DNA from: an uncultured Lachnospiraceae bacterium
GTDB taxonomy: Bacteria; Bacillota; Clostridia; Lachnospirales; Lachnospiraceae
Direction: 5' to 3'
DNA: 44,257 nt
Assembly (NCBI GenBank): GCA_946407725.1
Contig: CAMJPM010000014.1
Coordinates: 1-44,257, forward strand
Below, in pieces: positions 21,876 through 38,072 of the stretch. The notes below the pieces were generated by a model. It was not told where the DNA came from. It worked only from the letters and a program-made list of their open reading frames with translations, and searched no databases. A program made the position numbers and the translations under genes. Numbering within the stretch: position 1 is the stretch's first letter; every line of letters starts with the position of its first letter.

Positions 21876-21904
21876 TTGACAACATTACCTCCTGTCATTA
21901 TAAT
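21876..21904 (+). promoter_or_regulatory. Consensus promoter of asnB
   Basis: TTGACA (21876-21881), 17-bp spacer, TATAAT (21899-21904): a perfect match to the sigma-A consensus. Predicted start near 21911, about 80 bp before asnB. Confidence 0.8.
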
Positions 21905-21920
21905 AAGCCCATTGAGGAGG

Positions 21921-21960
21921 CAGCGACGCCTGAACAGGTTGTCGCTGTTCTTTACTTTTA
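21921..21960 (+). terminator. Leader hairpin of asnB, terminator-like
   Basis: CAGCGAC (21921-21927) pairs with GTCGCTG (21941-21947), with inner CCT/AGG pairing, followed by TTCTTTACTTTT. It begins about 10 nt after the predicted transcription start, so it would stop asnB transcription unless relieved. Confidence 0.55.
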
Positions 21961-21988
21961 AAACAATGTCAGAGGAAAGGAACCCATC

Positions 21989-23578
21989 ATGTGTGCGATA
22001 ATAGGATTTGAAGATAAGACTGCAATTGAACCGGATAAGGCAAAAGAATGCCTCGAACGCCTGACCTCCAGGGGTCCGGATATGACCAGGATGGAGGAAT
22101 GCGGAAATACGCTTCTGGGCTTTAACCGTCTGGCCATTATGGGACTTACCGCTTACGGTATGCAGCCTTTTTCATATAAGGATAACAAAGTGGTATGCAA
22201 CGGAGAGATTTACTGCTGGAGAGACCAGAGGAAGGAGCTTATAGGCAAGGGGCACAGATTTGTAAGTAACTCCGACTGCGAGATCATCCTTCCCCTGTTT
22301 GAGGAATACGGGGTTTCACTATTTGGCAGACTGGATGCGGAATTTGCCATGGTGATCTATGACAGCAAAACAGGAAAGCTTGTTGCGGCAAGGGATCCCA
22401 TAGGGATAAGGCCTCTATATTATGGTTATCTTTCAAATGGCTCCATAGTCTTCTGTTCGGAGCCAAAGGGGATAGTTGATATTGTGGACAGGGTATTTCC
22501 CTTCCCTCCGGGTTATTACTATAAAAACGGTGAGTTCATCCGCTACCGCGATCCTGCGGGAGTTACCCTTGTAAGTGCTGATGATGCCGACAGGGCTTCA
22601 GAGAATATAAGGGAGCTTCTGGTGAGCGGAGTGAGCAAACGCCTGGATTCTGATGCGCCCCTGGGATTTCTCTTATCAGGAGGGTTGGATTCCTCGCTTG
22701 TCTGTGCCATAGCTTCGAGGCTTATGCCAAGGACAAAGATCCGCACGTTCTCCATAGGGATGGACAGGGATTCCATCGATTCTAAATATGCAAAAGAAGT
22801 GGCAGATTATATCGGGGCAGAGCATACGAATGTGATAATGACAAAGGAAGAGGTCATAGAAAGCCTTCCCGAGGTCATAAAGATCCTCGGCACCTATGAT
22901 ATAACCACCATAAGAGCCAGCATGGGAATGTATCTGGTGTGTAAGTACATCCATGAAAAGACAGATATAAGGGTGCTCCTTACAGGAGAGATATCCGATG
23001 AAATGTTCGGGTATAAATATACAGATTTTGCGCCCAACGCAGAGGCTTTTCAGGAGGAATCCGAAAAAAGGATACGGGAGCTCCACTACTATGATGTACT
23101 CCGGGCCGACAGATGCATCTCCGCCAATTCACTGGAAGCCAGGGTTCCCTTCGGGGATCTGAAGCTTGTACAGTATGTAATGGGACTTAACCCGGCTATC
23201 AAAATGAATGTATATAAAAAGGGAAAATATCTTTTAAGGCACGCTTTTGAAAAGAACGGCTGGCTTCCGGAGTCCATTCTTCAGCGTGAAAAAGCAGCGT
23301 TTTCCGACGCGGTAGGGCATTCAATGGTGGATGATCTGAAGGAATACGCAGAGAGCCGTTATTCAGATCAGGAATTTGAAAGCCTGAAAAACAAGTATAC
23401 CCACGCCGCTCCCTTTACAAAGGAAAGCCTTTTATACAGGGAAATCTTTGAGAGCTTTTATCCCGGGCAGTCATCCATGATACCGGATTACTGGATGCCA
23501 AATAAAGACTGGGAAGGCTGCAATGTAAACGATCCCAGCGCCCGTGTGCTGGCAAACTACGGCGATAGCGGGGTTTGA
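21989..23578 (+). CDS. asnB: Asparagine synthase (glutamine-hydrolysing)
   Basis: A 529-residue two-domain enzyme that transfers the glutamine amide to aspartate, using ATP. The N-terminal Ntn glutaminase has Cys2 (MCAIIGF), RGPD, NRLAI, CNGEIYC and SDCEI. The synthetase domain has the PP-loop LLSGGLDSSL (about residues 228-237), TFSIG and LTGEISDEMFGY. The ATG follows GAGGAAAGG. It has its own consensus promoter with a leader hairpin. A first member of the glutamine/nitrogen block. Confidence 0.95.
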   Translation: MCAIIGFEDKTAIEPDKAKECLERLTSRGPDMTRMEECGNTLLGFNRLAIMGLTAYGMQPFSYKDNKVVCNGEIYCWRDQRKELIGKGHRFVSNSDCEIILPLFEEYGVSLFGRLDAEFAMVIYDSKTGKLVAARDPIGIRPLYYGYLSNGSIVFCSEPKGIVDIVDRVFPFPPGYYYKNGEFIRYRDPAGVTLVSADDADRASENIRELLVSGVSKRLDSDAPLGFLLSGGLDSSLVCAIASRLMPRTKIRTFSIGMDRDSIDSKYAKEVADYIGAEHTNVIMTKEEVIESLPEVIKILGTYDITTIRASMGMYLVCKYIHEKTDIRVLLTGEISDEMFGYKYTDFAPNAEAFQEESEKRIRELHYYDVLRADRCISANSLEARVPFGDLKLVQYVMGLNPAIKMNVYKKGKYLLRHAFEKNGWLPESILQREKAAFSDAVGHSMVDDLKEYAESRYSDQEFESLKNKYTHAAPFTKESLLYREIFESFYPGQSSMIPDYWMPNKDWEGCNVNDPSARVLANYGDSGV

Positions 23579-23596
23579 CGTTCAGGGTTAATAATC

Positions 23597-23670
23597 TTGT
23601 CTAAACTGTTTCTTCATATTATGATGGGTAGTACAAAAAGGAACAGCTGAAAAACCTTTACTGCCTTTTT
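23597..23670 (+). promoter_or_regulatory. Symporter promoter and leader hairpin
   Basis: TTGTCT (23597-23602), 17 bp, TATGAT (23620-23625). About 10 nt further AAAAAGG (23635-23641) can pair with CCTTTTT (23664-23670), extended by CAG/CTG, just before the GGGAGG ribosome site. It has the same geometry as the asnB, pyrG and glnN leaders, though the hairpin is weaker and A+T rich. Confidence 0.45.
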
Positions 23671-23685
23671 GGGAGGAACGGACAA

Positions 23686-25292
23686 ATGAAAGATACGCTT
23701 AGCCCGCAGGCTGTCAACCGTGCGGTTGAGGAAGCAGAGTCATTTTTGAAATCCGGAAATTTGATGCGAAGGATATCATCCGCATCAAATTTGACATAGA
23801 AGAAGCTCTCCTTTTCTATCAGGGCAAGCTGGGACAGGAAGCCGGTTTTTCCATGGATATGGGGAGCAGCTTTGGGAAAAAGCGAATCCGTCTCGACATA
23901 CCCGGAGAAATGATGGATCCGTTCATTTCAAGGGAACACAACTCCGAAGAAGATGAATTTATGAGACAGGCGCTTGTACGGATAGGGAAGCTGCCCCGCT
24001 GGCAATATCGACGGGGCAGCAATCGCATTTTGTTTTCCCTTAGCAAAAAACAGATGCCGGAATGGAAGAGACTGCTTCTTGCCTTGTGTCTTGCCCTTAT
24101 CATGGGCGCTCTTATGCGATTGGTGCCGTCAGGTGTCAGGGGAGTGATCCTGGAGGGAGTGATTTCGCCTATTTTGGATACTTTTTTGGGCTTTCTTAAT
24201 GCAGTGGCGGGTCCGATGATCTTCCTGTCCGTTATATGGGGAGTATACAGCATAGGGGATACAGCGAGCTTCAGCGTTATGGGGAAAAAACTGGGACTGA
24301 AGTATCTGTTTTACCTTTGCCTGCTTACGGTTCTTGCTGCCCTGATAAGCCTTATGACTTTTAATTTTCATTTCGGTGATTTCAAGGGAGGAGGAGAACT
24401 GTCCGCATTATATCAGATGGTGCTGGATATTATCCCCGATAATCTCTTTGTGCCGTTTACCCAGGGGAATACACTGCAGATTCTTTTTGTGGGAATTATA
24501 GTGGGGATAGCCATGCTTCTGATACGGCAGGAGACCAGCATGGTTGCGGATATGTCAGAGCAGCTGGGGTATATCATTAACGGGATTATGGGTGTGATCG
24601 GCAAGCTTGTTCCTGAATTTGTTTTCGGTAGTCTTATGATGATCGTGGCAACAAGCGAATTTGAAGCATTGAAGGTCGGAGGGATCTTTTTTGGAATGAC
24701 CATGGCCGTATGTATCCTGGCGATGCTGATACAAGGGTTACATGCATGTATGAAAACAAAGATCAGGCCCATAGATCTCTGGAAAAAAACATTACCCACA
24801 TTTCTGATCTCTATCACGACAGCATCTTCCGCAGCATCATTTTCACAGAATATGGATATCTGCACCAAAGAGCTGGGGATAGATAAGAAAATGGTCAGTT
24901 TTGGAGTTCCGTTCGGACAGGTACTATATAAGCCGTCAGTGACGATCCTGTTCTGGTTTTCAGCGATCAGCGTGGCTGTACATAACAACAATCAGATATC
25001 ATTGACCTGGTACATTACGGCGATCGTTATGTCGATCATCTTGTCTGCGGCAGCCCCTCCGATACCAGGCGAAATGACTGCTTCTTTCACAATCCTGTTT
25101 AACCAGCTGGGATTGCCGGTGGAGGATCTGGCTGTGATCCTGACCCTTACTTCGATCCTGGATTTCCTGGCAACAGCGACTAATGTGTTCTCGGGACAGT
25201 GTGTTATGGCTATCGTATCGGAAGAGATCGGTTTCCGAAAACGGGAAATGAACTCTGGGGACGGGGTTAGTGGTCCAAAAAATAACCCATAA
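23686..25292 (+). pseudogene. DAACS-family dicarboxylate/amino-acid symporter with N-terminal soluble domain, frameshifted
   Basis: ATG 23686 after GGGAGG encodes MKDTLSPQAVNRAVEEAESF, but the frame then closes at a TAG. One missing A in GGAAAT at 23755-23760 would join it to RKFDAKDIIRIKFDIEEALL and the long frame to 25292. The soluble domain (about 130 residues; DIEEALLFY, LDIPGEMMDPF) looks like a degenerate GHKL-ATPase fold. From about 24060 a polytopic DAACS-like transporter follows, with SSAASFSQN and DFLATATNVFSGQ; the NMDGT motif of typical members is absent. The last residues (SGDGVSGPKNNP) and the stop codon come from a repeat element. Without repair, translation could start only at internal sites such as 23853. 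Confidence 0.75.
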
Positions 25293-25306
25293 ACTCCATC
25301 CCCAGG
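25255..25306. repeat. GGGGACGGGG palindrome, copy 1
   Basis: CTGGGGACGGGGTTAGTGG and an imperfect complement ending CCATCCCCAGG, about an A-rich centre. It lies at the junction of the convergent symporter and mnmA genes and encodes the symporter's final residues and TAA. It may act as a bidirectional terminator. Copies at 26926-26971 and 44121-44174. Confidence 0.8.
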
Positions 25307-25311
25307 AAGTC

Positions 25312-26379
25312 TCAGGCAGAAGTAATAATTCCGCCTCCCAGTAAACAATCGTTGTCATCATAGAAAACCGCCGACTGTCCCGGGGTAGCTGCCCGTACCG
25401 GTTCCTCAAAAAGGATCCTGACCCTGTCTCCGCTTATCCTTTCCACCATTGCGTACTGTCCCGGATGACGGTACCTTACCTTTATCTGACTGCGGAATGC
25501 GTCACCCTCTGCCGGTTCCGGGGCTCCCATGAAATTCAGGTCCCGGCAGAAGATCTCCCTGCAGAAAGTGTCATCATCCTTTACCAGAAGGATCTCATTC
25601 TTATCCGGCCTTATCTCTTTTATGTAAACCGGATATCCCAGAGCGATCCCCAGTCTTTTCCTCTGTCCCACCGTATAACGAAAAATTCCCTTATGGGTTC
25701 CGAGGATATTCCCCTCTTCATCCACAAAATTGCCCTCAGGGGGCAGCTCACCGTCCATATTTTTCTTTATAAAGTCCGCATAGCTTCCATCAGGAACAAA
25801 GCAGATCTCCTGGGAGTCCGGCTTTGAAGCTACGTTAAGTCCGGCTTTTTCAGCAATACTCCGAACCTCTTCCTTGGAATACTTCCCAAGGGGCATAAGG
25901 GTTTTTTCCAGCTGCTCCTGAGTCAGTCGGTAGAGCATATAGGTCTGGTCCTTTTCTGTGTGCTGCGCCTTACGTACCGTGTATCTTCCGTTTTCGAGCC
26001 TTGTGACCGATGCATAATGTCCTGTGGCTACATGGTCTGCCTCCAGCACCTTTGCATAGTAAAGGAGATATTCCCATTTGATGACCCGATTACAGAGCAC
26101 ACAGGGATTCGGAGTAACCCCCCGGAGATAATCATCAATGAATGGTCTGACCACCTTTTCCTCAAAGTCCGGGACCCGGTTAAAAACATGATAGGGGATC
26201 CCTATCCGCCGGGCTGTTTCCCTGGCATCATCTATTTCACAGCAGCGGCTGTCCTCGCCATCGGAACCTATCCATGTGCGGAGAGTGACCCCTGCCACAT
26301 CGTAGCCTTCCTCCTTGAGAAGCAGGGCTGCAACGGCGCTGTCTACGCCTCCTGACATACCTACTAATACTTTCGACAT
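25312..26379 (-). CDS. mnmA: tRNA-specific 2-thiouridylase MnmA
   Basis: A 355-residue enzyme that thiolates U34 of Glu, Gln and Lys tRNAs. The PP-loop SGGVDSAVAA is at residues 9-18. The catalytic cysteines are in TPNPCVLCN (about 100) and SQEICFVPDG (about 195). GHYA, KDQTYMLY and the C-terminal beta-barrel (FEEPVRAATPGQSAV) are present. The length is normal. The ATG at 26379 follows AGGAGGG on the minus strand. It is a housekeeping gene placed opposite to its neighbours. Confidence 0.95.
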   Translation of the reverse strand: MSKVLVGMSGGVDSAVAALLLKEEGYDVAGVTLRTWIGSDGEDSRCCEIDDARETARRIGIPYHVFNRVPDFEEKVVRPFIDDYLRGVTPNPCVLCNRVIKWEYLLYYAKVLEADHVATGHYASVTRLENGRYTVRKAQHTEKDQTYMLYRLTQEQLEKTLMPLGKYSKEEVRSIAEKAGLNVASKPDSQEICFVPDGSYADFIKKNMDGELPPEGNFVDEEGNILGTHKGIFRYTVGQRKRLGIALGYPVYIKEIRPDKNEILLVKDDDTFCREIFCRDLNFMGAPEPAEGDAFRSQIKVRYRHPGQYAMVERISGDRVRILFEEPVRAATPGQSAVFYDDNDCLLGGGIITSA

Positions 26380-26570
26380 ATTTCCCTCCTAAACCACTTT
26401 GGTAAGGATATCTTTTCTCCTTATGTTATCTCCTCCGTAAAGGGGTGGGTTTTCGCTCGTCGATGACGACATTATACCATGGATTAGAGCTCCCTGATGC
26501 CTTTAATCAACGTCCCCTTGTCTTGTCAAATGACTCTCAGCTACGTGTCACGTAGCCAATTCCTTGATTT
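26380..26570 (-). promoter_or_regulatory. mnmA leader and extended -10 promoter
   Basis: On the minus strand, TGGTATAAT (-10 at 26476-26471) is an extended -10 promoter without a good -35, about 95 bp before mnmA. A small odd palindrome CTACGTG-T-CACGTAG lies at 26541-26555. No gene is seen in this stretch. Confidence 0.5.
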
Positions 26571-26908
26571 TGTGACTAAACCCGCAGTTTTACCTCTCCT
26601 TAGTCACACATTTCCGGTCAAACTGCCCGCTTCCCACGCCCCGGTTGTGACTAAATCCAGGGTTTAGCCTCTTCTTAGTCACACATTTCCGGTCAAACTG
26701 CCCGTTTCCCACGCCCCGGTTGTGACTAAATCCAGGGTTTTACCTCTCCTTAGTCACACATTTCCGGTCAAACTGCCCGCTTCCTACGTCCCGGTTGTGA
26801 CTAAATCCAGGGTTTTACCTCTCATTAGTCACATATTCCCAATAAACACGGATTCAAATCTCTTCCTGGATGTGACTAAACATAGGTAATGCCCTCCCCT
26901 TAGTCACG
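26571..26908. repeat. Five tandem 75-bp units each with a TGTGACTAA palindrome
   Basis: TGTGACTAAA starts at 26571, 26646, 26721, 26796 and 26871, an exact 75-bp period. Each is followed about 20 bp later by TTAGTCACA (or TTAGTCACG in the last), making a 38-bp interrupted palindrome. The 37 bp between palindromes (CATTTCCGGTCAAACTGCCC and onward) is nearly identical in the first three gaps and diverged in the fourth, where the spacing is still kept. No ORF or cas gene is present. It lies in the mnmA/pyrG divergent gap. Confidence 0.9.
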
Positions 26909-26925
26909 TTTTTCAGTCTGAAACC

Positions 26926-26971
26926 ACGGGGACGGGGTTATGGTCAAAAAATGACCCATCAACCCCGTCCC
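26926..26971. repeat. GGGGACGGGG palindrome, copy 2
   Basis: CGGGGACGGGGTTATGGTC and its complement ending AACCCCGTCCC, about AAAAAA. It ends 18 bp before the -35 box of pyrG and abuts the 75-bp array. Confidence 0.8.
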
Positions 26972-26989
26972 ACCGTTCCGTCCCGTCCC

Positions 26990-27018
26990 TTGACTTATAT
27001 CCGGAAAAAGCATATATT
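26990..27018 (+). promoter_or_regulatory. pyrG promoter
   Basis: TTGACT (26990-26995), 17-bp spacer, TATATT (27013-27018), followed by a T-run. Predicted start near 27025. Confidence 0.75.
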
Positions 27019-27031
27019 TTTTTTATCAGGC

Positions 27032-27070
27032 AAAGGCGCTTTGAACAGTTGTGGTTCAAGGTGCCTTTTT
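27032..27070 (+). terminator. pyrG leader terminator (attenuator candidate)
   Basis: AAAGGCGCTTTGAAC (27032-27046) pairs with GTTCAAGGTGCCTTT (27054-27068), followed by Ts: a strong intrinsic terminator starting about 7 nt after the predicted start and 130 bp before pyrG. Further structure follows: GCCG-N5-CGGC near 27081 and ATCCGCC/GGCGGAT (27126-27161) with an inner AGGT/ACCT. The GGGC start used for pyrG reiterative-transcription control in Bacillus is not seen. Confidence 0.75.
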
Positions 27071-27199
27071 CTGTGCGATAAGCCGCCAGACGGCCGGGGG
27101 AATTACCTCCCTGCCCGATTGGACAATCCGCCAGGTGGACAACCTGCATACATGGGCGGATATCTGAAAGTAAATGCCGGTGGGCATTAAGGAGGAGAA

Positions 27200-28804
27200 A
27201 TGTCAGTAAAATACGTGTTTGTAACAGGTGGAGTGGTTTCAGGCCTCGGAAAGGGAATAACGGCAGCGTCCCTGGGACGTCTTTTGAAGGAACGGGGTTA
27301 CAGGGTCACGATCCAGAAATTTGATCCCTACATAAACATAGATCCCGGAACAATGAACCCTGTACAGCACGGAGAAGTGTTTGTAACGGAGGACGGCACG
27401 GAGACGGATCTGGATCTCGGGCATTACGAAAGGTTCACAGACGAGGAGCTGAATAAGGAAAGCAATGTAACAACAGGGAAGATCTACTGGTCCGTGCTCA
27501 ATAAGGAAAGAAGAGGCGAGTATGGTGGGGGAACCGTTCAGGTCATTCCCCATATCACCAATGAGATAAAAAGCAGGTTTTACAGGGGAACGAAGGAAGA
27601 GGAAACCCGCGTTGCCATAATAGAAGTGGGCGGAACCGTGGGAGATATTGAAAGCCAGCCGTTTATTGAAGCCATAAGGCAGTTCCGGCACGATATGGGA
27701 CATGAAAATGTGATACTTATCCATGTGACGCTGATCCCCTATCTCCATGCCTCCGAGGAATTAAAGACCAAGCCTACGCAGGCAAGCGTCAGGGAGCTGC
27801 AGAGCCTCGGTATCATGCCGGACATAATAGTAAGCCGGACGGAGAAGCCTCTGGATGATGATATAAGGGAAAAGATATCTCTCTTCTGTAATGTGCCGAA
27901 GAAAAATGTCATTCAGAACCTAAATCTTTCCACGGTGTATGCTGCACCTCTGGCACTGGAAAAGGAGCATCTGGCAGATGATGTCTGTGAAGCGCTGGGG
28001 CTTCCAAACAACAAACCTGACCTTAAGGAGTGGTCGGAAATGGTTGAGAGGATGCTGCATCCGGAAAAGGAAGTTCATATTGCCCTTGTGGGGAAATATG
28101 TTTCATTGCATGATGCATACATAAGCGTTGTGGAGGCCCTGAAGCACGCTGGCGCTGAAAACCATGCCTCAGTCAGCATTAAATGGATATCTTCGGAAGA
28201 TATAACGGAGGATAATATCGGGGAACTGATGCAGGGCATGGACGGCCTTATAGTTCCCGGAGGCTTCGGACACAGGGGCATTGAGGGAATGCTGACAGCC
28301 ATCAGGTACGCAAGGGAAAACGACATTCCCTATCTCGGTCTCTGCCTTGGCATGCAGCTCGCCCTGGTGGAATATGCAAGAAATGTTCTGGGATATTCTG
28401 ATGCAAACTCTACCGAACAGGATCCGGATACCACCCATCCGGTTATTCACATCATGCCCGATAAGGAGGGTCTTACTGATATAGGCGGAACATTGAGGCT
28501 TGGGTCATACCCCTGCAGGCTGGAGAAGGACTCTAAGGCATATTCCCTATACGGCAGTGAGAATATCAGCGAACGGCACCGCCACAGGTACGAGGTAAAT
28601 AACGATTACAGGGATGCCCTGTCACAGGCCGGGGTAAAGATCTCTGGAACCTCTCCGGACGGCAGGATAGTAGAAATGATGGAGCTTCCCTCGCACCCCT
28701 GGTTTCTCGCTACCCAGGCGCATCCGGAGTTTAAATCAAGGCCGAATAAGGCGCATCCCCTGTTTAAGGGATTTGTAGCCGCATCCTTAAGGAAGGGTTC
28801 GTAA
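27200..28804 (+). CDS. pyrG: CTP synthase
   Basis: A 534-residue enzyme making CTP from UTP with glutamine. The N-terminal amidoligase has [30 protein letters not shown] and GTVGDIES; the class I glutaminase domain (from about 290) has the nucleophile C382 in GLCLGMQ and the catalytic HPEF ([12 protein letters not shown]). Full length. The ATG follows AAGGAGGAG. It has its own promoter and leader terminator; a second glutamine-amide user in the block. Confidence 0.97.
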
Positions 28805-28848
28805 GATACCGCTGCAGACAAGGTACAGAAAACGAAAGGATAAAGGTT

Positions 28849-29592
28849 TTGGGAAGACTTGAAACAAACGACTGGATCGTGCTGAATGACATTATCTTTA
28901 TGATATACAGTACTAAGAATACCGAGGACATGCAGCATTTGTTCCTCGACCGTATCCGGACGGTCATAAGCTATGATGCTGCGGATTTTTGTCTCGCCGA
29001 CAGCGATACGGAGGGGAGACTGTCCCGGGCCGTTACCGTGGGTATAAAGGATGATACGCCCATTAAATATGATGAGCTTGATTATAACCGTGACATCAGA
29101 TGCAGCGGAAGGAGCATGGTATACCGCAGTTCCGATACGGTTCCTGACGAGCGCAGGATAAATACACCGTATTATGATAAGGTTTACCGTGCCAATGACC
29201 TGCATTACTCCCTTCAGATGATGATAGGCTATGAGGGACGCTTTCTCGGGGTGATAACCCTTTACCGGAAAAAAGCCAGCGGGGATTTCGATTACTATGA
29301 TATCTTTTCCCTGGATGTCCTTAAAGACCACATATCCTTTAGTATTTCAAAGCGGCTGTCGGCAGATAACGCATCCGAAGTCTTTGATGTCGACAACTTT
29401 GTAATGAGATACGAGCTTACAAAAAGAGAAGCGGAGGTGCTATCCCATATCATAAAACGCCAGGACAATGTGAGCATAAGCAAGGAGCTTGTTATCAGCA
29501 TAAATACGCTGAAAAAGCATGAAAGGAACATATACCGGAAATGCGGGGTTGGGAGCCGTATGCAGCTTTTCAAGCTTCTTTCCAAAGGGTAA
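28849..29592 (+). CDS. LuxR-type transcriptional regulator with GAF-like sensor
   Basis: A 247-residue regulator. The start is TTG at 28849, eight bases after GAAAGGA; no better ATG exists. The N-terminal about 165 residues (MQHLFLDRIRTVISYDAADF, then YEGRFLGVITLYRK) look like a GAF fold. The C-terminal GerE/LuxR HTH is LTKREAEVLSHIIK, ISKELVISINTLKKHERNIY, KCGVGSRMQLFKL. It lies 44 bp after pyrG and before amtB, so it may respond to or control nitrogen genes; that link is positional only. Confidence 0.85.
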   Translation: MGRLETNDWIVLNDIIFMIYSTKNTEDMQHLFLDRIRTVISYDAADFCLADSDTEGRLSRAVTVGIKDDTPIKYDELDYNRDIRCSGRSMVYRSSDTVPDERRINTPYYDKVYRANDLHYSLQMMIGYEGRFLGVITLYRKKASGDFDYYDIFSLDVLKDHISFSISKRLSADNASEVFDVDNFVMRYELTKREAEVLSHIIKRQDNVSISKELVISINTLKKHERNIYRKCGVGSRMQLFKLLSKG

Positions 29593-29630
29593 TACTACAA
29601 AAGGATTACAAAAAGGGTAAATTAGTGTTA

Positions 29631-29659
29631 TTGAAGACGGCAGGACAGCGTAGTATATT
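29631..29659 (+). promoter_or_regulatory. amtB promoter
   Basis: TTGAAG (29631-29636), 17-bp spacer, TATATT (29654-29659). Predicted start near 29666, about 245 bp before amtB. Confidence 0.6.
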
Positions 29660-29677
29660 TTCTTCTGTCATCAACAA

Positions 29678-29750
29678 GGAACATAAATGTTCCCCAAAGA
29701 AGCAAAGGGGCTTCGGTCAAAAACCGGGGTCCCTTTCCTTTTGAGGAAAG
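29678..29750 (+). terminator. amtB leader: hairpin, terminator and competing hairpin
   Basis: GGAAC-ATAAAT-GTTCC (29678-29693) has a six-base loop. AAAGGG...CGGT/ACCG...CCCTTT (29704-29736) is terminator-like, followed by CCTTTT. CTTTCC-TTTTGA-GGAAAG (29733-29750) shares its left arm with the terminator's right arm, so the two cannot form together. This is the layout of an attenuation switch. Confidence 0.55.
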
Positions 29751-29763
29751 CTGTTTCTTAAAG

Positions 29764-29882
29764 GTACTGTAAAGTTTTCTATGAAAACTTTACAGTACGT
29801 AGGCCACGCCTTCGCCCTTATCACACATCTTTGATGTGTGATGCCGCCCCGGCGAGGGGAAGCGAATTATAAATGGCGTGGC
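29764..29882 (+). repeat. Structured hairpin array in the amtB leader
   Basis: A perfect 16-bp stem GTACTGTAAAGTTTTC-TAT-GAAAACTTTACAGTAC (29764-29798). Next is a nested fold closed by GCCACGCC (29803-29810) and GGCGTGGC (29875-29882), then TTCGC/GCGAA, with ATCACACATC-TTT-GATGTGTGAT (29820-29842) and GCCG-CCC-CGGC (29843-29853) inside. It ends about 10 nt before the AGAGAGGAG ribosome site of amtB. Confidence 0.75.
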
Positions 29883-29909
29883 TCTCAGTATTAAGAGAGG
29901 AGAATTGTT

Positions 29910-31670
29910 ATGAATGAAGAAATCATGAAAGCTTTGGACGGAGAACTGTTTGCGGTGTGGTTCCTTATAGGAGCAGCCCTGGTATTCTGGATGCAGGCAG
30001 GCTTTGCAATGGTGGAAGCAGGTTTTGCCAGGGCAAAGAATGCCGGAAACATCCTTATGAAGAATCTTATGGATTTCTGCATAGGATGCTGTGTATTTAT
30101 CCTGATCGGCTTCAGCTTCCTGCTGGGCGAGGACATAATGGGCTTTATCGGGGCTCCGGGATTTGATATCTTTACGAACTACTCGGGCTTTGACTGGTCG
30201 AACTTCATATTTAACCTGGTTTTCTGCGCCACCACCGCTACCATAGTATCCGGTGCCATGGCTGAGAGAACAAAGTTTTTAAGCTACTGTGTGTATTCCG
30301 GAGTGATCTCCGCGCTTATCTACCCCGTTGAGGCTCACTGGATCTGGGGCGGAGGATGGCTCTCAAATCTCGGTTTCCATGATTTTGCGGGATCCTGTGC
30401 GATCCACATGGTGGGAGGCATTGCTGCAATAGTCGGGGCAAAGATGGTAGGTCCCCGTATAGGTAAATTTGAAAAGGATAAGAGCGGCAAGATCACAAAA
30501 GTAAACGCTTTTCCCGGACATAATATCGTTGTGGGTGCCCTTGGTGTATTTATCCTGTGGCTTGGCTGGTACGGCTTTAACGGAGCCGCCTGTACTTCTG
30601 TAGACCAGCTGGCGTCGGTATTTGTGACCACCACCATAGCCCCCAGTGTTGCTACTGTAGTCTGCATGGTATTTACCTGGCTGAAATACGGAAAGCCCGA
30701 TGTATCAATGTGTCTGAACGCATCTCTTGCGGGACTGGTGGCCATCACCGCTCCCTGTGACGTAACGGATGCCTTCGGAGCCATCGTTATCGGTGCTGTA
30801 GCGGGTCTGCTGGTCTGCTTCGGAGTATGGTTCCTGGACAACAAGCTGCATATAGATGATCCGGTGGGTGCTGTCGCCGTACATATGATGAACGGTATCT
30901 GGGGAACTCTGGCCACAGGGCTTTTTGCCACCACCTCGGCCCCCGGAAACGATGAGCTTGTAGGACTGTTTTACGGCGGAGGCTTTAAGCTCCTTGGGAT
31001 CCAGTTCATTGGCTTTGCTTCAGTTGCAACCTGGACTGTAGCCACGATGGTCATTGTTTTCTCTGTAATAAAGGCAATATTCGGACTGCGAGTAAGTGAG
31101 GAAGAGGAGATAGAAGGACTTGACGTTATGGAGCATGGTCTCACATCAGCCTATGCCGGGTTCTCTATCGTAGATATGACGGCGGCTTCCATGATCGCAA
31201 ACGAGAACACCAACCTCGGTGTGGGTGAATACGATCAGGCCTCTGATGCCATGAAAAAGGCGGCGGTACCGGTGGAAAACATTTCCGCAGTAACAGAGGG
31301 AACCAGCCTCAATACAGGAATGCACAAGGTTGTCATAATAACCAAGCTGTCCAGATATGACAAGATCAAGAAAGCCTTAAATGCCCTCGGTATTACGGGA
31401 ATCACCGTTACCCAGGTTACAGGCTGCGGCCTTCAGAAAGGAACAGGCCAGATGTACCGCGGAGTTGAGATGGATCTCACCCTTCTTCCCAAGATCAAGC
31501 TTGAAGTGGTGGTAAGCGGCATTCCTGTGGACAGCGTTATTGAGACTGCAAAGAAGACATTGTATACCGGAAAGATCGGCGACGGAAAGATCTTTGTATA
31601 TCCTGTAAGCAGGGTTGTGAAGATCAGAACCGGCGAAGAGGATTTCGAAGCGCTGCAGGATGTGGAATAA
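29910..31670 (+). CDS. amtB: Ammonium channel AmtB fused to a C-terminal PII domain
   Basis: A 586-residue fusion. Residues about 1-410 are an Amt/Rh channel (FWMQAGFAMVEAGFAR, AHWIWGGGWL, twin pore histidines H166 in AIHMVGG and H325 in AVHMMNGIWG). No signal peptide. From about 470 a PII (GlnB/GlnK) domain follows: KIKKALNALGITG, GCGLQKGTGQMYRGVEMDL (T-loop), GKIGDGKIFV and RIRTGEE-type ATP/ADP contacts (KIRTGEED). The residue equivalent to uridylylated Tyr51 of E. coli GlnB is Met. In separate proteins PII plugs the channel when nitrogen is ample; here the plug is tethered. Fusions of this type are known in clostridia. Confidence 0.95.
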   Translation: MNEEIMKALDGELFAVWFLIGAALVFWMQAGFAMVEAGFARAKNAGNILMKNLMDFCIGCCVFILIGFSFLLGEDIMGFIGAPGFDIFTNYSGFDWSNFIFNLVFCATTATIVSGAMAERTKFLSYCVYSGVISALIYPVEAHWIWGGGWLSNLGFHDFAGSCAIHMVGGIAAIVGAKMVGPRIGKFEKDKSGKITKVNAFPGHNIVVGALGVFILWLGWYGFNGAACTSVDQLASVFVTTTIAPSVATVVCMVFTWLKYGKPDVSMCLNASLAGLVAITAPCDVTDAFGAIVIGAVAGLLVCFGVWFLDNKLHIDDPVGAVAVHMMNGIWGTLATGLFATTSAPGNDELVGLFYGGGFKLLGIQFIGFASVATWTVATMVIVFSVIKAIFGLRVSEEEEIEGLDVMEHGLTSAYAGFSIVDMTAASMIANENTNLGVGEYDQASDAMKKAAVPVENISAVTEGTSLNTGMHKVVIITKLSRYDKIKKALNALGITGITVTQVTGCGLQKGTGQMYRGVEMDLTLLPKIKLEVVVSGIPVDSVIETAKKTLYTGKIGDGKIFVYPVSRVVKIRTGEEDFEALQDVE

Positions 31671-31690
31671 AAATTGGAAAGGGGTTAATT

Positions 31691-34255
31691 ATGGCGGCAT
31701 TTGACAGGATACTATCGGGAAATCCGGGACTCGACAGGGTGCTTGATAATATCAGGCTGGGAGATAACGTCGTATTCAGGGTGTCTGACTTAAAGGAATT
31801 CCGTTTCTTTATGGAGCCTTATGTGGAACAGGCTGTAAAAGACAGGAGGAATTTAATCTATTTCAGATTTGCCGCCCATGAACCCCTTGTCCGGGAAAGG
31901 GAGGGTGTAAAGATATATAATATCCCCCTTTCCCATCTCTTTGAAACCTTTACGGTGGAAATACATAACATAATTGAAAAAGAGGGAAGGGATGCTTTCT
32001 ATGTCTTTGACTGTCTTTCCGAACTCCAGACAGCCTGGGCTACAGACCTTATGATGGGAAACTTCTTCAGGGTCACGTGTCCCTTCCTTTTTATTCTCGA
32101 TACGGTTGCCTTCTTCCCCATCATCAGGGGAAAGCATTCCGTGTCAGCCATAAATAAGATCAAGGATACTACACAGCTGTTTCTGGATGTGTATTCTGAC
32201 GGCAGCAGGATTTTTCTGCGTCCTGCGAAAGTGTGGAACAGGGATTCCGAGACCATGTTCCTGCCCCATGTCTGTACGGAGGACAAGGAAGTCAGGCCGG
32301 TGCAGGACGGCGTAATGTCAAGCCGTTTTTATTCTGTTTTAAGAAAAAAGAGTCGTCCCGGGGAGGAACAGTTTACCGATTCCTGGGACAGATTTTTTAA
32401 CGACGCGAAGATCATGCATGAATCCGGGCACGATATGGAGGAAAGCTCGGAGAAGATGTGCAGGATAATGATGACGAGGGATGAGAGGCTGCAGGTTCTA
32501 TTAAAAAAGCATTTCACACCGGAAGACTATTTTGATACCAGAAGCCATATGGTGGGTACGGGAATGATCGGCGGAAAAGCCTGCGGAATGCTTCTTGCAA
32601 GGGCGATAATAAGGAACAATGCACCGGATATCGATGATGTTATGGAAGAGCACGATTCCTTCTTTATCGGTTCCGATATGTTCTACACATACATAGTCGA
32701 TAATGGATTCTGGGACTTAAGGATCAGGCAGAGAAGCGGAGCTGAATATTTCAGTCTTGCCTCCGAATTTGCGGAGAAGATCATGGAGGGGGCTTTCTCG
32801 GAGGATATGGAGGTCCAGTTTGTAAATATCCTGGAGTATTACGGACATGACCCGTTTATTGTGAGATCCAGCAGTATACTTGAGGACGGCTTTGGAAATG
32901 CCTTCGCAGGTAAATATGAATCTGTTTTCTGTGTGAACAGAGGAGAGCTTTCCGACAGGCTGAAAGAATTTGAGGAAGCCATAAGGACTGTTTATGCCAG
33001 CACAATGAGCCTTTCTGCTCTGGACTACCGTAAAAGGCGGGGTCTTGACAGTAAGGATGAGCAGATGGCGCTTCTGGTACAGCGGATTTCGGGCTCGTAT
33101 TACGGACAGTATTTCATGCCCTGTGCTGCAGGGGTAGCATATTCATACAGCCCTTACAAATTTTTAAGATCGATTGACCAGACCGCCGGAATGCTGCGGC
33201 TTGTAATGGGTCTCGGAACAGCTGCAGTGGACAGGATAGAAGGGTCGTATCCGAGGCTTGTGAGCCTTGACAGTCCGGAGGCCACAAATTATACAACAAT
33301 AGCGGAAAAACACAGGTTTTCACAGAGAAAAGCCGAGGCGGTCGATACATTAAGCCGAAGTTTAAGCCTTGTGGACAGCGATATTCTTCTTGAAAATCTC
33401 CCGCAGTATCTTAAAAATATCCTTTCCGAAAGGGATTATGAAGCAGAGGACAGCTTAAGGTATATGGGACGCTCCGGGGAAGTCCGGTTCGTGTCATGCA
33501 AGGGAATAGTGTCAAACAGGAATCTTATGCAGAACATGAAGGACATGCTGCATACCATATCAGCTGAATACGAGCATGCTGTAGACGTTGAATTCACCAT
33601 CAACTCCGCACCGGATGGGGAATACGCCATCAACCTCCTGCAGTGCAGGCCTCTTAAGGTTTATAAGGATGAGGCGGAAATAAGTATTCCGGAAGATAAG
33701 GGCAGGGTGATAGTGGAAAGCCGGCATTCCTCCATGGGATTGTCAAGAAAGGAAAAGATAGATATCCTGGTTTACGTTGACCCGGTGAATTATTATAATA
33801 TGCCCTATTCCGAAAAACCTGCCGTTGCAGAGCTTATAGGAAAGATAAACTGGAAATACAGAAACAGCGGTAAAAAGCTTATCCTTATGGTGCCCGGCAG
33901 GATCTGTACATCATCTCCGGAGCTTGGTATCCCTGCTTCTTTTTCAGATATCAGCGGATTTGAAGCGGTGTTTGAGATAGAGGAGAGAACAGCGGGATAT
34001 AATCCCGAACTCTCATACGGCAGCCATATATTCCAGGATCTCGTGGAACAGGAAATTCTATATTCTGCCGTGTTTACCTCAGATACAGTTACGGAATATT
34101 CGCCTGATGTGTTCTTAAGTTTTGAGGACATGGGATCCGGACTTGAAATTGAGGAAAGCATGGCAAATGTTGTAAGGGTGTTTGATACTTCTGCCGGTGA
34201 TCTGACGCTATACTACGATATGACCGGGGAGCATCTTCTTCTCAGCAGAAATTGA
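31691..34255 (+). CDS. PEP/pyruvate-binding-domain protein with KaiC-like N-terminus
   Basis: An 854-residue protein. The N-terminal 200 residues (SGNPGLDRVLDNIRLGDNVV, YFRFAAHEP, YVFDCLSELQ) resemble the RecA/KaiC-like fold but lack a Walker A P-loop. The middle (about 280-660) is a PPDK/PEP-synthase ATP-grasp nucleotide-binding domain: GMIGGKACGM, FIVRSSSILEDGFGNAFAGK, CRPL. The swivelling phospho-histidine domain and the PEP-binding TIM barrel of true PEP synthase are absent. The last about 190 residues are unassigned. It starts 20 bp after amtB with GGAAAGGGG and likely shares its transcript. A phosphotransfer or sensing role is possible; the reaction is unknown. Confidence 0.75.
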   Translation: MAAFDRILSGNPGLDRVLDNIRLGDNVVFRVSDLKEFRFFMEPYVEQAVKDRRNLIYFRFAAHEPLVREREGVKIYNIPLSHLFETFTVEIHNIIEKEGRDAFYVFDCLSELQTAWATDLMMGNFFRVTCPFLFILDTVAFFPIIRGKHSVSAINKIKDTTQLFLDVYSDGSRIFLRPAKVWNRDSETMFLPHVCTEDKEVRPVQDGVMSSRFYSVLRKKSRPGEEQFTDSWDRFFNDAKIMHESGHDMEESSEKMCRIMMTRDERLQVLLKKHFTPEDYFDTRSHMVGTGMIGGKACGMLLARAIIRNNAPDIDDVMEEHDSFFIGSDMFYTYIVDNGFWDLRIRQRSGAEYFSLASEFAEKIMEGAFSEDMEVQFVNILEYYGHDPFIVRSSSILEDGFGNAFAGKYESVFCVNRGELSDRLKEFEEAIRTVYASTMSLSALDYRKRRGLDSKDEQMALLVQRISGSYYGQYFMPCAAGVAYSYSPYKFLRSIDQTAGMLRLVMGLGTAAVDRIEGSYPRLVSLDSPEATNYTTIAEKHRFSQRKAEAVDTLSRSLSLVDSDILLENLPQYLKNILSERDYEAEDSLRYMGRSGEVRFVSCKGIVSNRNLMQNMKDMLHTISAEYEHAVDVEFTINSAPDGEYAINLLQCRPLKVYKDEAEISIPEDKGRVIVESRHSSMGLSRKEKIDILVYVDPVNYYNMPYSEKPAVAELIGKINWKYRNSGKKLILMVPGRICTSSPELGIPASFSDISGFEAVFEIEERTAGYNPELSYGSHIFQDLVEQEILYSAVFTSDTVTEYSPDVFLSFEDMGSGLEIEESMANVVRVFDTSAGDLTLYYDMTGEHLLLSRN

Positions 34256-34276
34256 ACAGTTACTAAGGTACAAAAA

Positions 34277-35671
34277 ATGCAGGATTACTTCAATACGGAT
34301 AAACCACACGAGGAATGTGGTGTTTTCGGAATATTTGCTCCGGCAGGAATGGATGTTGCCAGGGATATATACTACGGCCTCACTGCTCTTCAACACAGGG
34401 GACAGGAATCTGCCGGAATGGCTGTGACGGACATAGCCGGCCAAAAGGGCAATGTGAAAGTCGTTAAAGGAATGGGTCTTGTTCATGAAGTATTCTCTGA
34501 AGAAAATTTAGACCGTTTGAAGGGTAATACAGGCATCGGTCATGTCAGGTATTCGACCACAGGAGGGAGTGTTGCTGAAAACGCCCAGCCGATCTCCATG
34601 AATTACATCAAGGGCAGTCTTTCCCTTGTCCATAACGGCAATATAATAAATTCCGCTGAACTTAAAGAAAGGCAGATGAACAGGGGACAGGCCCATTATA
34701 CATCATCAGATTCCGAGGTTATGTCCTATGAGCTGATAAGCGAACGGCTTAAAACCGGATCCATAGAAGAAGCTGTTAAGGGAATTATGAATATTATTAA
34801 GGGGGGATTTGCCGTGGTGGTAATGAGCCCGAGAAAACTGGTTGCATTCCGGGATCCGCTGGGGATAAAACCGCTTGTCATCGGAGAACGTGATAATACA
34901 TTTATCATTGCCTCAGAGAGCACAGCAATAAAAGCTGTGGGAGGGAAGCCTTTAAGGGATGTGGATCCGGGTGAGATCCTGACAGTTACGAAAGAAGGGG
35001 TTAAAAGCGACAGGACTTTTTGCGGGGGAAAGCAGGCTCACTGTGTTTTTGAATATATCTATTTCGCAAGACCGGATTCTGTGATCGATGGGATTCCGGT
35101 ACGCGAGGCAAGATATAACGCCGGTAGAGCACTTGCTCTTGCGGACAGGGTTCAGGCCGATATTGTATGCGGAGTTCCTGATTCGGGACTTATCGCAGCC
35201 GAGGGATATGCAGGCGCATCGGGGATCCGGCTTTCCTTTGTTTTTCATAAGAACAGTTATGTGGGAAGAAGTTTTATTAAACCGACAGACGAAGAGAGGC
35301 AGACTGCGGTGCACATGAAACTCAGTGTTCTTGTTTCTGCAGTCAAAGGGAAGAGGATAGTTCTTATTGACGATTCGATTGTACGGGGTACTACAATGCG
35401 CCAGATAATAACGATGCTTAAGGAAGCAGGAGCCGAAGAAGTCCATGTGAGGATCAGTTCTCCCCCGTTCCTGTATCCCTGCTATTACGGGACAGATGTG
35501 GCTTCGTCGGGACAGCTGATTGCTGCAGAGCATTCAAATGAAGAGGTAAGAAAAGAAATAGGTGCTGATTCTCTCGAGTATCTGAGAATAGAAGATTTCA
35601 AAACCATGACAGGAGGTCTTTCACTCTGCACAGCCTGTTTCAGCAATGATTATCCACTGAAAGTTCATTGA
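34277..35671 (+). CDS. purF: Amidophosphoribosyltransferase
   Basis: A 464-residue enzyme catalysing the first step of purine synthesis, PRPP plus glutamine to phosphoribosylamine. The Ntn nucleophile is Cys14 after a propeptide (KPHEECGVFGIF), as in the Bacillus-type enzyme. The PRPP motif is VLIDDSIVRGTTMRQI. The likely 4Fe-4S cysteines are in AHCVFEYIYF, YPCYYG and LCTACF. The ATG follows AAGG; the gap to the preceding gene is 21 bp, so it is probably cotranscribed with amtB. Its separation from other pur genes and its link to ammonium uptake is unusual. Confidence 0.95.
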   Translation: MQDYFNTDKPHEECGVFGIFAPAGMDVARDIYYGLTALQHRGQESAGMAVTDIAGQKGNVKVVKGMGLVHEVFSEENLDRLKGNTGIGHVRYSTTGGSVAENAQPISMNYIKGSLSLVHNGNIINSAELKERQMNRGQAHYTSSDSEVMSYELISERLKTGSIEEAVKGIMNIIKGGFAVVVMSPRKLVAFRDPLGIKPLVIGERDNTFIIASESTAIKAVGGKPLRDVDPGEILTVTKEGVKSDRTFCGGKQAHCVFEYIYFARPDSVIDGIPVREARYNAGRALALADRVQADIVCGVPDSGLIAAEGYAGASGIRLSFVFHKNSYVGRSFIKPTDEERQTAVHMKLSVLVSAVKGKRIVLIDDSIVRGTTMRQIITMLKEAGAEEVHVRISSPPFLYPCYYGTDVASSGQLIAAEHSNEEVRKEIGADSLEYLRIEDFKTMTGGLSLCTACFSNDYPLKVH

Positions 35672-35685
35672 AATAAAAAATGATG

Positions 35686-35726
35686 TTGCAGACACTATTG
35701 ACAAAAATATAATACGGGCGTAAAAT
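35686..35726 (+). promoter_or_regulatory. Overlapping glnN promoters
   Basis: TTGACA (35698-35703), 17 bp, TAAAAT (35721-35726). Overlapping it: TTGCAG (35686-35691), 16 bp, TATAAT (35708-35713). Start sites are predicted near 35720 and 35733. Confidence 0.65.
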
Positions 35727-35746
35727 CCCGATATATAAAGACAAGG

Positions 35747-35786
35747 GCGTCTTTGAGAATGATCTCAAAGGCGCTTTTTCTTTTTT
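35747..35786 (+). terminator. glnN leader terminator 1
   Basis: GCGTCTTTGAGA (35747-35758) pairs over 12 bp with TCTCAAAGGCGC (35763-35774) across a 4-nt loop and is followed by TTTTTCTTTTTT. A textbook intrinsic terminator beginning 14-27 nt after the predicted starts and 175 bp before glnN. Confidence 0.85.
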
Positions 35787-35798
35787 GTTGATGACAGG

Positions 35799-35866
35799 CA
35801 GTGCAAAGGAGCATTGCGCGGGAAACTATCGTTTTTCGCAGAATAGCTCTTTGGCACTGTTTTTTT
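35799..35866 (+). terminator. glnN leader terminator 2
   Basis: CAGTGC-AAAG-GAGC (35799-35812) pairs with GCTC-TTT-G-GCACTG (35846-35859), with inner TGCG/CGCA and GAAAC/GTTTTTC pairing, followed by seven Ts. A second long terminator 12 bp after the first, still about 95 bp upstream of glnN. Confidence 0.75.
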
Positions 35867-35960: not shown

Positions 35961-38072
35961 ATGATCGATGCAGCAAAACTTACTGATGAATACGGATGTC
36001 TCGTGTTTAACGACAGGATCATGAGGGAAAGGCTGCCTAAGGATATTTACAGGGCAGTGCATAAGACCATCGAGCGTGGAACACATCTGGAGCTGGATGT
36101 GGCAAACTGTGTGGCCGCAGTCATGAAGGAGTGGGCAATAGAGAACGGTGCCACCCATTTCACACATTGGTTTCAGCCTATGACGGGTCTCACGGCTGAA
36201 AAGCATGACAGCTTTATCTCTCCTTCGGATGACGGTTCGATAATAATGGAGTTTTCAGGTAAGGAGCTGGTAAAGGGAGAACCGGACGCATCCAGCTTCC
36301 CCTCCGGGGGCTTAAGGGCCACTTTTGAAGCCAGGGGTTATACTGCATGGGATCCCTCATCACCCGCATTCATTAAAGACGGCTCCCTGTATATTCCCAC
36401 CGCATTCTGTTCATACGGCGGAGAGGCCCTGGATAAGAAGACCCCGCTCTTACGTTCAATGGAGGCTCTTTCCAATGAAGCGCTGAAGATATTAAAGACG
36501 CTTGGTATAGAAAACGTTAAAAGGGTAAATACGACCATTGGCTCTGAGCAGGAATACTTCCTTATAGATAAAAACTATTATAAACAGAGAAAAGATCTCC
36601 TTTTCACCGGACGCACACTCATCGGGGCTCCACCCACAAAGGGTCAGGAGATGGAGGATCACTATTTCGGGGTAATAAAGCCCAAGGTTTCAGCTTATAT
36701 GCATGATCTGGACGAAGAGCTCTGGAAGCTGGGGATTCCGGTGAAGACCAAGCATAATGAGGTTGCCCCCTCCCAGCATGAGTGTGCGCCGGTATTTGAA
36801 ACCGCCAATGTGGCTGTGGATCATAACCAGCTTACAATGGAAGTGATGAAGAAGGTGGCGGAAAAGCATAATTTTGCATGTCTTCTGCATGAGAAGCCCT
36901 TTGAAGGGATCAACGGCTCGGGAAAACACAATAACTGGTCGGTTTGCACAGATACGGGAATAAATCTGCTGGATCCCGGAAAGCATCCCGGAGAGAACCT
37001 GCCCTTCCTGGTATTCCTTATCGCGGTGATAGCTGCCGTGGATGAATATGCACCGATACTCCGTCTCTCCGTAGCATCAGCGGGAAATGACCACAGGCTG
37101 GGAGGAAACGAGGCGCCCCCTGCCATTATCTCCATTTTCGTGGGAGACGAGCTTTCGGAAGTCCTTAAGGGCGTGGAGGAAGGAAGCGCTTATCAGGGAT
37201 CCGGAAAGGTTCAGATGGGAATGGGAGCCCAGGTGCTGCCACATATCACAAAGGACAACACCGACAGGAACAGGACCTCGCCCTTTGCCTTTACCGGAAA
37301 CAAATTTGAATTCCGTATGCCCGGTTCCTCGGTTTCAGTGGCAAATGCAAATATCGTATTAAATACCGCGGTTGCGGAAGAGCTTTCAAAAATCAGTGAA
37401 GAGCTTTCCAAATACAGCGAGGAAGAGCTTCCCGAAAAGATCATGGATGTGCTGAAGGAAATGCTCCTTAAGCATAAAAGGGTGCTCTTTAACGGAAACG
37501 GATATACGGACGAATGGATAGAGGAAGCAGGAAAGAGGGGTCTTCCCAATCTTAAGTCCCTTCCCGACGCAATGCCTTACTGGATCTCGGACAGCTCCAT
37601 AGGCCTCTTTACAAAACACGGTATTTTCACTGAAGAAGAGATACGCTCCAGGTATGAGATACTGCTGGAGAACTATTCGAAATCCGTTCATATCGAGGCC
37701 CTCACCATGCAGGAGATGGTAAGAAAGGATCTTATGGAGGGCATCATAGCCTATGAAAAGGATGTTACAAAGGAAATGCTTCAGAAAAAGGAGGTCCTTC
37801 CCGAAGCGGACTGCCTTATGGAGAAAAGTATTCTCAAGGTTTTAGACGAGGCCACCTCCGGCATGAGTAAAGAGCTGATAAAGCTTAAGGAGGACACTGC
37901 AAAGGCAGAACAGATGGAAGACGATCTGCTTTCCCAGGCCGGATTTTATAAGGATACCATCCTCACAGATATGGAGAACTTAAGGAAATACGCGGACAGC
38001 GCTGAGGCCATGGTGCCGGATAAGTATTTATGCTATCCCACATACGGACAGATGCTGTTCTCGCTGATATAA
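35961..38072 (+). CDS. glnN: Glutamine synthetase type III
   Basis: A 703-residue enzyme making glutamine from glutamate, ammonium and ATP. Length and motifs fit GSIII, not the 450-residue GSI: THFTHWFQPMTG, SFPSGGLRATFEARGYTAWD, GSEQEYFLID, KHNEVAPSQHE, NGSGKHNNWS, NDHRLGGNEAPPA, NRTSPFAFTGNKFEFR. I place the start at ATG 35961 after GAGGAGG rather than 35922. It is preceded by two leader terminators and followed by gltBD in what is probably one operon (GS-GOGAT). Confidence 0.95.
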   Translation: MIDAAKLTDEYGCLVFNDRIMRERLPKDIYRAVHKTIERGTHLELDVANCVAAVMKEWAIENGATHFTHWFQPMTGLTAEKHDSFISPSDDGSIIMEFSGKELVKGEPDASSFPSGGLRATFEARGYTAWDPSSPAFIKDGSLYIPTAFCSYGGEALDKKTPLLRSMEALSNEALKILKTLGIENVKRVNTTIGSEQEYFLIDKNYYKQRKDLLFTGRTLIGAPPTKGQEMEDHYFGVIKPKVSAYMHDLDEELWKLGIPVKTKHNEVAPSQHECAPVFETANVAVDHNQLTMEVMKKVAEKHNFACLLHEKPFEGINGSGKHNNWSVCTDTGINLLDPGKHPGENLPFLVFLIAVIAAVDEYAPILRLSVASAGNDHRLGGNEAPPAIISIFVGDELSEVLKGVEEGSAYQGSGKVQMGMGAQVLPHITKDNTDRNRTSPFAFTGNKFEFRMPGSSVSVANANIVLNTAVAEELSKISEELSKYSEEELPEKIMDVLKEMLLKHKRVLFNGNGYTDEWIEEAGKRGLPNLKSLPDAMPYWISDSSIGLFTKHGIFTEEEIRSRYEILLENYSKSVHIEALTMQEMVRKDLMEGIIAYEKDVTKEMLQKKEVLPEADCLMEKSILKVLDEATSGMSKELIKLKEDTAKAEQMEDDLLSQAGFYKDTILTDMENLRKYADSAEAMVPDKYLCYPTYGQMLFSLI

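Follow-up and report, generated by a model that had tools for sequence, protein, structure and literature searches.

The sequence analysed here (the window) comprises positions 1 to 44,257 of contig CAMJPM010000014.1, forward strand, from an uncultured Lachnospiraceae bacterium (assembly GCA_946407725.1). Four of its genes, asnB, pyrG, amtB and glnN, share a characteristic leader, in which a promoter is followed by a small hairpin with a six-base loop (hexaloop) and an overlapping terminator (Table 1). At all four genes the 5' arm of the terminator begins inside the hexaloop, which is closed by a C-G pair and carries A at position 1 and G at position 4 (A1/G4); a second hairpin in the glnN leader obeys the same loop rule. 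An A1/G4 hexaloop whose closing pairs are conserved marks the target RNAs of ANTAR proteins, as part of PMC3369931 describes. Judging from the sequence, it is very probable that these leaders belong to a transcription-attenuation regulon for nitrogen assimilation, in which an ANTAR protein would hold the hexaloop hairpin against the terminator.

The first-pass annotation of this region had proposed a regulon of start-proximal terminators on nitrogen genes, with a promoter and a hairpin at five genes (these four and a symporter) and the hairpin placed 3-15 nt from the predicted start. The regulon itself is borne out by a covariance-model search of relatives, where the terminators are kept at orthologous genes, and four of the five members stand: their promoters have 17-bp spacers and their leaders fold with z = -3.4 (asnB), -4.8 (pyrG), -4.8 (amtB, where the folded stretch takes in a second small hairpin) and -6.3 (glnN) relative to dinucleotide shuffles. 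The proposed distance fits asnB, pyrG and glnN, where the terminator sets in 17, 13 and 16 nt after the -10 box, and fails for amtB, where it sets in after 44 nt with another small hairpin in between. It follows from this anatomy that the off-state would yield short RNAs, predicted at ∼45-55 nt for asnB, pyrG and glnN and ∼75 nt for amtB. A GGCG..TTTGA pattern noticed earlier at pyrG and glnN is real, and corresponds to the last loop bases followed by the closing G and the 3' stem. Absent from the annotation were the ANTAR-type hexaloop hairpin overlapping the terminator, an ANTAR gene that follows glnA, further members elsewhere in the genome, and the second glnN terminator (z = -5.1 against dinucleotide shuffles). 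A hairpin similar to glnN hairpin 2 is present in the glnN leaders L004, L005, L007 and L008. The apical loop of the glnN terminator (AAUGAU) was considered as the ANTAR hexaloop and rejected, as it is not kept by most relatives, unlike the basal hairpin. Downstream of its terminator, the amtB leader also contains a near-perfect inverted repeat, GTACTGTAAAGTTTTC/GAAAACTTTACAGTAC (29763-29800).

Table 1. Genes and predicted leader features of asnB, pyrG, amtB and glnN, in window positions.
Feature	Position	Strand	Basis
asnB promoter, TTGACA / 17 bp / TATAAT	21876..21904	+	read from sequence
asnB putative antiterminator hairpin, AGGC[AGCGAC]GCCU	21918..21931	+	window scan; covariance-model seed, yet absent from the model's matches
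asnB terminator with T-rich tail, overlapping the hexaloop hairpin	21922..21959	+	scan, shuffle folding
asnB, asparagine synthase	21989..23578	+	Pfam
pyrG promoter, TTGACT / 17 bp / TATATT	26990..27018	+	read from sequence
pyrG putative antiterminator hairpin, AGGC[AAAGGC]GCUU	27028..27041	+	scan; model R1, 42.1 bits (seed)
pyrG terminator	27032..27072	+	scan, shuffle folding
pyrG, CTP synthase	27200..28804	+	Pfam
amtB promoter, TTGAAG / 17 bp / TATATT	29631..29659	+	read from sequence
P1-like hairpin 5' of the amtB element, GGAAC[AUAAAU]GUUCC, loop position 4 = A; linker 5 nt	29678..29693	+	read from sequence
amtB putative antiterminator hairpin, GAAGC[AAAGGG]GCUUC	29699..29714	+	scan; model R1, 37.4 bits (seed)
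amtB terminator	29704..29742	+	scan, shuffle folding
amtB, fused to P-II domain	29910..31670	+	Pfam
glnN promoter, TTGACA / 17 bp / TAAAAT	35698..35726	+	read from sequence
glnN putative antiterminator hairpin 1, (U)AAAGAC[AAGGGC]GUCUUU(G)	35736..35755	+	scan; model R1, 46.7 bits (seed)
glnN terminator 1	35743..35791	+	scan, shuffle folding
glnN putative antiterminator hairpin 2, GCAGUGC[AAAGGA]GCAUUGC	35798..35817	+	by eye; missed by scan and model
glnN terminator 2, overlapping hairpin 2	35799..35866	+	shuffle folding
glnN, type III glutamine synthetase	35961..38072	+	Pfam

Both strands of the window (88.5 kb) were scanned for an A1/G4 hexaloop on a stem of at least 4 bp, with an overlapping terminator. 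A terminator limit of 80 nt gives seven matches, and a limit of 50 nt, chosen after the 80-nt result was known, gives four, which are exactly those of asnB, pyrG, amtB and glnN. Thirty dinucleotide shuffles scanned with the 50-nt limit give 0-3 matches each (mean ∼1). When the 15 other loop classes are used, C1/G4 likewise gives four matches and the remaining classes 0-3; the C1/G4 matches are spread over both strands and are weaker (-8.3 to -9.9 vs -12.9 to -21.1 kcal/mol). A stem-free version of the scan was discarded in favour of the covariance model, as coding and register-shifted matches were mixed in (59 of 175 were stemless). Among known RNA families, Rfam release 15 gives no match in the window at or above its gathering thresholds, and at E<=5 only four low-scoring, unrelated matches between 21800 and 36000. 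A search of the bacterium's own genome with RF01728 (STAXI) found no match.

The fifth proposed member, an SDF-type symporter gene (23686-25292), is not retained. Its hairpin has z = -1.05, with 33 of 200 shuffles equally good, and the T run lies inside the stem; the leader has neither a hexaloop in the scan nor a covariance-model match. The gene itself has a ribosome-binding site and start at ∼23686 in a frame that stops within ∼40 codons, while the long open reading frame (ORF) runs from 23853 in a different frame, an apparent frameshift or sequencing error.

The loop and its closing pair follow the consensus C[A A N G R N]G. Across 52 aligned elements, with seeds picked for G4 and for a small hairpin of 3 bp or more, C8 and G15 of the closing pair never vary and A1 and A2 exceed 90%; G4 is likewise constant, but was required by the choice of seeds. 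The small hairpin has 78 double-change cells against 27.7 +/- 6.6 in shuffled alignments (score 0.574 vs 0.244), and the terminator has 98 against 21.6 +/- 4.9. The two covary over one common 3' arm, meaning that they are mutually exclusive structures. Because the choice of seeds had already called for 3 bp or more of it, the small hairpin was tested separately with a covariance model (R1) that was given the terminator pairs only and was run on other genera. It is present with at least 4 bp in 92 of the 109 R1 matches (2 are seeds and some are near-identical), while shuffling the 5' arm gives a mean of 33.8 and a maximum of 44 over 200 rounds. At class level it is formed in 25 of 26 matches, and in the two sets pooled it occurs in 100 of 116 distinct sequences. 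Loop conservation in the R1 matches is not independent, because R1 contains the loop sequence.

A dyad at the start site could also be a DNA operator for a repressor, with the terminator incidental, and both the position near +1 and the two-fold symmetry of the stem would suit such a site. The stems, however, are diverse and covarying (AAGC, AGGC, CAGC, AGAC, TAGC, CGAC and others), it is the spacer, the hexaloop, that is conserved instead, and covariation also links the 3' stem to the terminator arm. Stem pairs 2-4 contain 30 G.U and only 2 A.C among 348 cells; tolerance of the former and avoidance of the latter indicate RNA pairing rather than a DNA dyad, and make an operator most unlikely. 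A further explanation is that the elements are plain terminators stopping readthrough from upstream, and some weak matches in the own genome (C10 and C83) do look bidirectional. Yet a promoter scoring at least 10 is found directly 5' of 96 of the 109 elements (4% in shuffles), so a plain terminator would merely silence its own gene, and the small hairpin is conserved, which together leave this explanation a practically negligible probability.

The same layout is found in related genomes at glnN, amtB, asnB, pyrG and glnA. On-strand model matches at E<=0.05 occur at 22 of 30 glnN loci (seven of the 30 being from other families), 27 of 30 amtB loci and 12 of 30 asnB loci, though many loci of these sets supplied seeds. 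Across the order, 215 of 294 sampled genomes are matched at E<=0.01; across the class, own family included, 131 of 293 are matched at E<=0.001, where weak matches may include plain terminators. A downstream gene, taken as the longest ORF starting within 420 nt, could be obtained for 105 of the 109 R1 matches. These comprise 35 type III glutamine synthetases (GSIII), 30 ammonium transporters, 6 asnB and 5 asnA, and also P-II, NAD synthase, carbamoyl-phosphate synthase and urease genes. Outside the order, 26 downstream ORFs include 16 for GSIII, 4 for Amt and 3 for AsnA. When the 700 nt upstream are scanned under relaxed criteria, 45 of 80 named glnN loci are matched, among them Blautia schinkii and Sellimonas caecigallum (one match, L372, is apparently spurious). 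No element stands immediately ahead of glnN in the three nearest named loci, Butyrivibrio L294-L296; there, an asparagine-synthase-like ORF precedes glnN, and by eye a model match lies ahead of that ORF in L294 and L296, while in L295 the next ORF further upstream has an end like that of the AmtB-PII protein. The asnB orthologues L123-L127 are without the element. In L126 and L127 the DNA before asnB reads as the end of an ANTAR gene, and in L123-L125 as that of an LL-diaminopimelate aminotransferase gene; because of these gene ends asnB probably lies in glnA- or dapF-headed operons there. A gene resembling this aminotransferase adjoins the ANTAR gene in the present genome. In two relatives (G015:C93 and G007:C53), the ANTAR gene, asnB, pyrG and glnN are found within ∼5 kb, with glnA before the ANTAR gene, which suggests an ancestral nitrogen cluster.

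R1 has 13 matches in the own genome at E<=5. The top seven lie 5' of glnN, dapF (beside dapL), pyrG, glnA-ANTAR, amtB, gdhA and a gene for an AgcS amino-acid carrier. As the own-genome seeds were glnN, pyrG, amtB, glnA and asnB, the finds at dapF, gdhA and agcS are non-seed ones, those at gdhA and agcS being weak (E 0.001 and 0.013). Of the remaining six, one is a copy on the opposite strand, and the rest are weak and by eye resemble plain terminators. An eight-unit regulon is predicted for this genome. The dapF element (G000:C30:27213-27262, L173) has ∼43 nt from the -10 box to the hexaloop hairpin, a distance that contains another stem, AUCUGUUC...GAACAGAU. For pyrG, a control apart from that of the other genes has a precedent in Bacillus subtilis, where the gene is regulated by attenuation at a start-proximal terminator through CTP-dependent reiterative initiation. 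In the present genome the predicted start region, UUUUUAUCAGGC, is without the GGGC-type start of the B. subtilis system, and the leader has a hexaloop hairpin of the same kind as the nitrogen genes (AGGC[AAAGGC]GCUU), making this alternative very unlikely.

A single ANTAR protein could be detected in this genome. Its gene lies directly after glnA, in an operon that carries the element. Clostridium saccharobutylicum likewise has an ANTAR-type gene (glnR) directly after glnA, and this is thought to act by antitermination. Among 21 ANTAR loci fetched, the next upstream ORF is a glutamine synthetase in 18, and in nine of these a relaxed scan finds the element ahead of glnA. In all 18 linked proteins the phosphoacceptor Asp is missing and the acidic pair is never complete, in contrast to the three unlinked proteins, all of which retain Asp and pair, and to an EutV-type response regulator, whose receiver has the phosphoacceptor. 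ANTAR profile matches in the PDB are EutV, Rv1626, the nitrate regulator 4akk and AmiR; a structure model of the ANTAR protein (mean pLDDT 78, pTM 0.52) finds Rv1626 and EutV as its best matches by E-value, with TM-scores of 0.5-0.6. At E<=0.01 the element occurs in 203 of 243 genomes with ANTAR versus 12 of 51 without, and at E<=1e-3 in 171 of 243 versus 5 of 51, counts that are not corrected for phylogeny.

The same RNA switch could in principle be operated by another factor, a different RNA-binding protein or a small RNA, with the co-occurrence of ANTAR due to shared ancestry. Besides the uncorrected counts, this would suit the five ANTAR-negative genomes that retain matches at E<=1e-3 (four matches in G313), in which a whole-protein search found no match covering the ANTAR part; a sixth, G223, gave only a weak match (E 0.2). 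On the other hand, the A1/G4 loop with its conserved closing pairs is the ANTAR rule as published in the relevant part of PMC3369931, the sole detected ANTAR gene stands directly behind glnA, and the element is rare in genomes that lack ANTAR; another factor is thus unlikely. Four genomes (G313, G126, G300 and G327) have matches at E<=1e-4 and no detectable ANTAR domain, for which a lost contig, a divergent regulator or a decayed system are candidate readings. The first-pass annotation had offered two modes of control; that by an RNA-binding antiterminator is supported, and that by the nascent hairpin itself, without a partner, is not supported.

The elements resemble the dual-hexaloop antiterminators (eut of Enterococcus faecalis with EutV, nasF with NasR, amiE with AmiR), as far as these are set out in part of PMC3369931. 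Common to both are the A1/G4 hexaloop with conserved closing pairs, a hairpin that overlaps and excludes an intrinsic terminator, the association with nitrogen-management genes, and an ANTAR protein with a receiver-like part. The known systems differ in having two loops (P1 and P2) separated by a linker of 5-12 nt, whereas here there is usually one, a few nt from the predicted start; in addition, the regulator gene here follows glnA, the phosphoacceptor is absent and the predicted regulon has eight units. Where a promoter is clear (101 matches), 6-16 nt separate the end of the -10 box from the base of the hairpin in 89 cases, placing the predicted start at the hairpin foot and leaving no room for a P1. 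Hexaloops of the A..G type within 60 nt upstream are found for 18 of 109 matches, barely above the 11% in shuffles. Within the window only amtB has a P1-like hairpin, and near relatives (L064-L068) have GGGAC[AUGAUU]GUUCC, also with A at loop position 4; apart from this exception, the arrangement of P1 plus P2 with a short linker is generally not present. Part of PMC8934654 describes an EutV-RNA structure with an ANTAR dimer on one hexaloop, which would be the minimal site, raises the extent of single-hexaloop motifs as a question, and suggests that single-loop sites may exist in cases without the time limit imposed by a transcribing polymerase. In contrast, the site described here lies close to the start and overlaps a terminator, where the limit does apply, and the elements are best regarded as candidate single-hexaloop ANTAR sites under a moving polymerase.

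Several observations weigh against this interpretation. According to part of PMC3369931, EutV needs both hexaloops in vivo, and deletion of P1 abolishes induction. At pyrG, the element is found in only 8 of 30 genus loci (E<=0.05). The asnB element has a deviant loop and was found by the scan only, the model missing it even though it is a seed. At glnA of this genome loop position 1 is G rather than A, as it is at some amtB and glnA loci of relatives. Some downstream genes have no obvious nitrogen role (ABC-transporter, PucR, N-acetylglucosaminidase). To these are added the 40 of 243 ANTAR genomes without a match at E<=0.01, and the five ANTAR-negative genomes already mentioned.

Several other features surround the four genes. 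Between a minus-strand ORF (25312-26379) and the pyrG promoter, there are about four tandem copies of a 75-bp unit (26570-26880) with TGTGACTAAA...TTAGTCACA palindromes. A LuxR-type regulator gene (28849-29592) separates pyrG from amtB, and the space between amtB and purF is occupied by a gene (31691-34255) for an 854-aa protein with a PPDK_N (PEP-synthase-like ATP-binding) domain, for which there is no NCBIfam match over the curated cut-off. The gene next after glnN, starting at 38115, encodes the large subunit of glutamate synthase.

In the proposed mechanism, RNA polymerase would initiate at the sigma-70-type promoter and soon transcribe the small hexaloop hairpin, whose loop and 3' stem double as the 5' arm of the terminator. 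Under nitrogen excess, the terminator would prevail unaided and a short RNA would be released; under nitrogen shortage, the ANTAR protein would bind the hexaloop and stabilise the small hairpin, blocking the terminator and allowing the gene to be transcribed. The two structures, their mutual exclusion and covariation, the promoter position, gene content, conservation and ANTAR co-occurrence are all read from sequences, and from them we infer that ANTAR is the binding protein and the direction of control. The signal is probably not phosphorylation; the protein would sense the glutamine state via glutamine synthetase or PII, as suggested by the missing phosphoacceptor and by the location of ANTAR in the glnA operon. 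A similar logic is known from Gram-positive GlnR, where, as part of PMC9249791 describes, glutamine synthetase and regulator form an operon and the feedback-inhibited glutamine synthetase serves as the sensor. GlnR, however, is a DNA-binding repressor, whereas an RNA-binding antiterminator is proposed here. Most likely, a glutamine-synthetase-linked RNA-binding protein switches the genes on via half of the known RNA target, and the best reading of the comparative data is that single-hexaloop ANTAR antitermination governs nitrogen assimilation in many Clostridia. More tentatively, and with slightly less than even confidence, the whole may be a circuit of glutamine synthetase, ANTAR and RNA shared by much of the class Clostridia, in which a non-phosphorylatable ANTAR protein reads the glutamine state through the glutamine synthetase of its own operon and acts on a single-hexaloop antiterminator at the start site, without a two-component signal or a recruitment hairpin. 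No description of the element was found in a search confined to the open-access literature, which does not prove that none exists. As it stands, the element provides a natural regulon candidate for one-hexaloop sites, mostly at central nitrogen genes. It makes testable the action of ANTAR within a few tens of nt of transcription without a recruitment hairpin, and ANTAR switching without phosphorylation, and it points to a nitrogen regulator candidate for bacteria that are abundant in gut and rumen.

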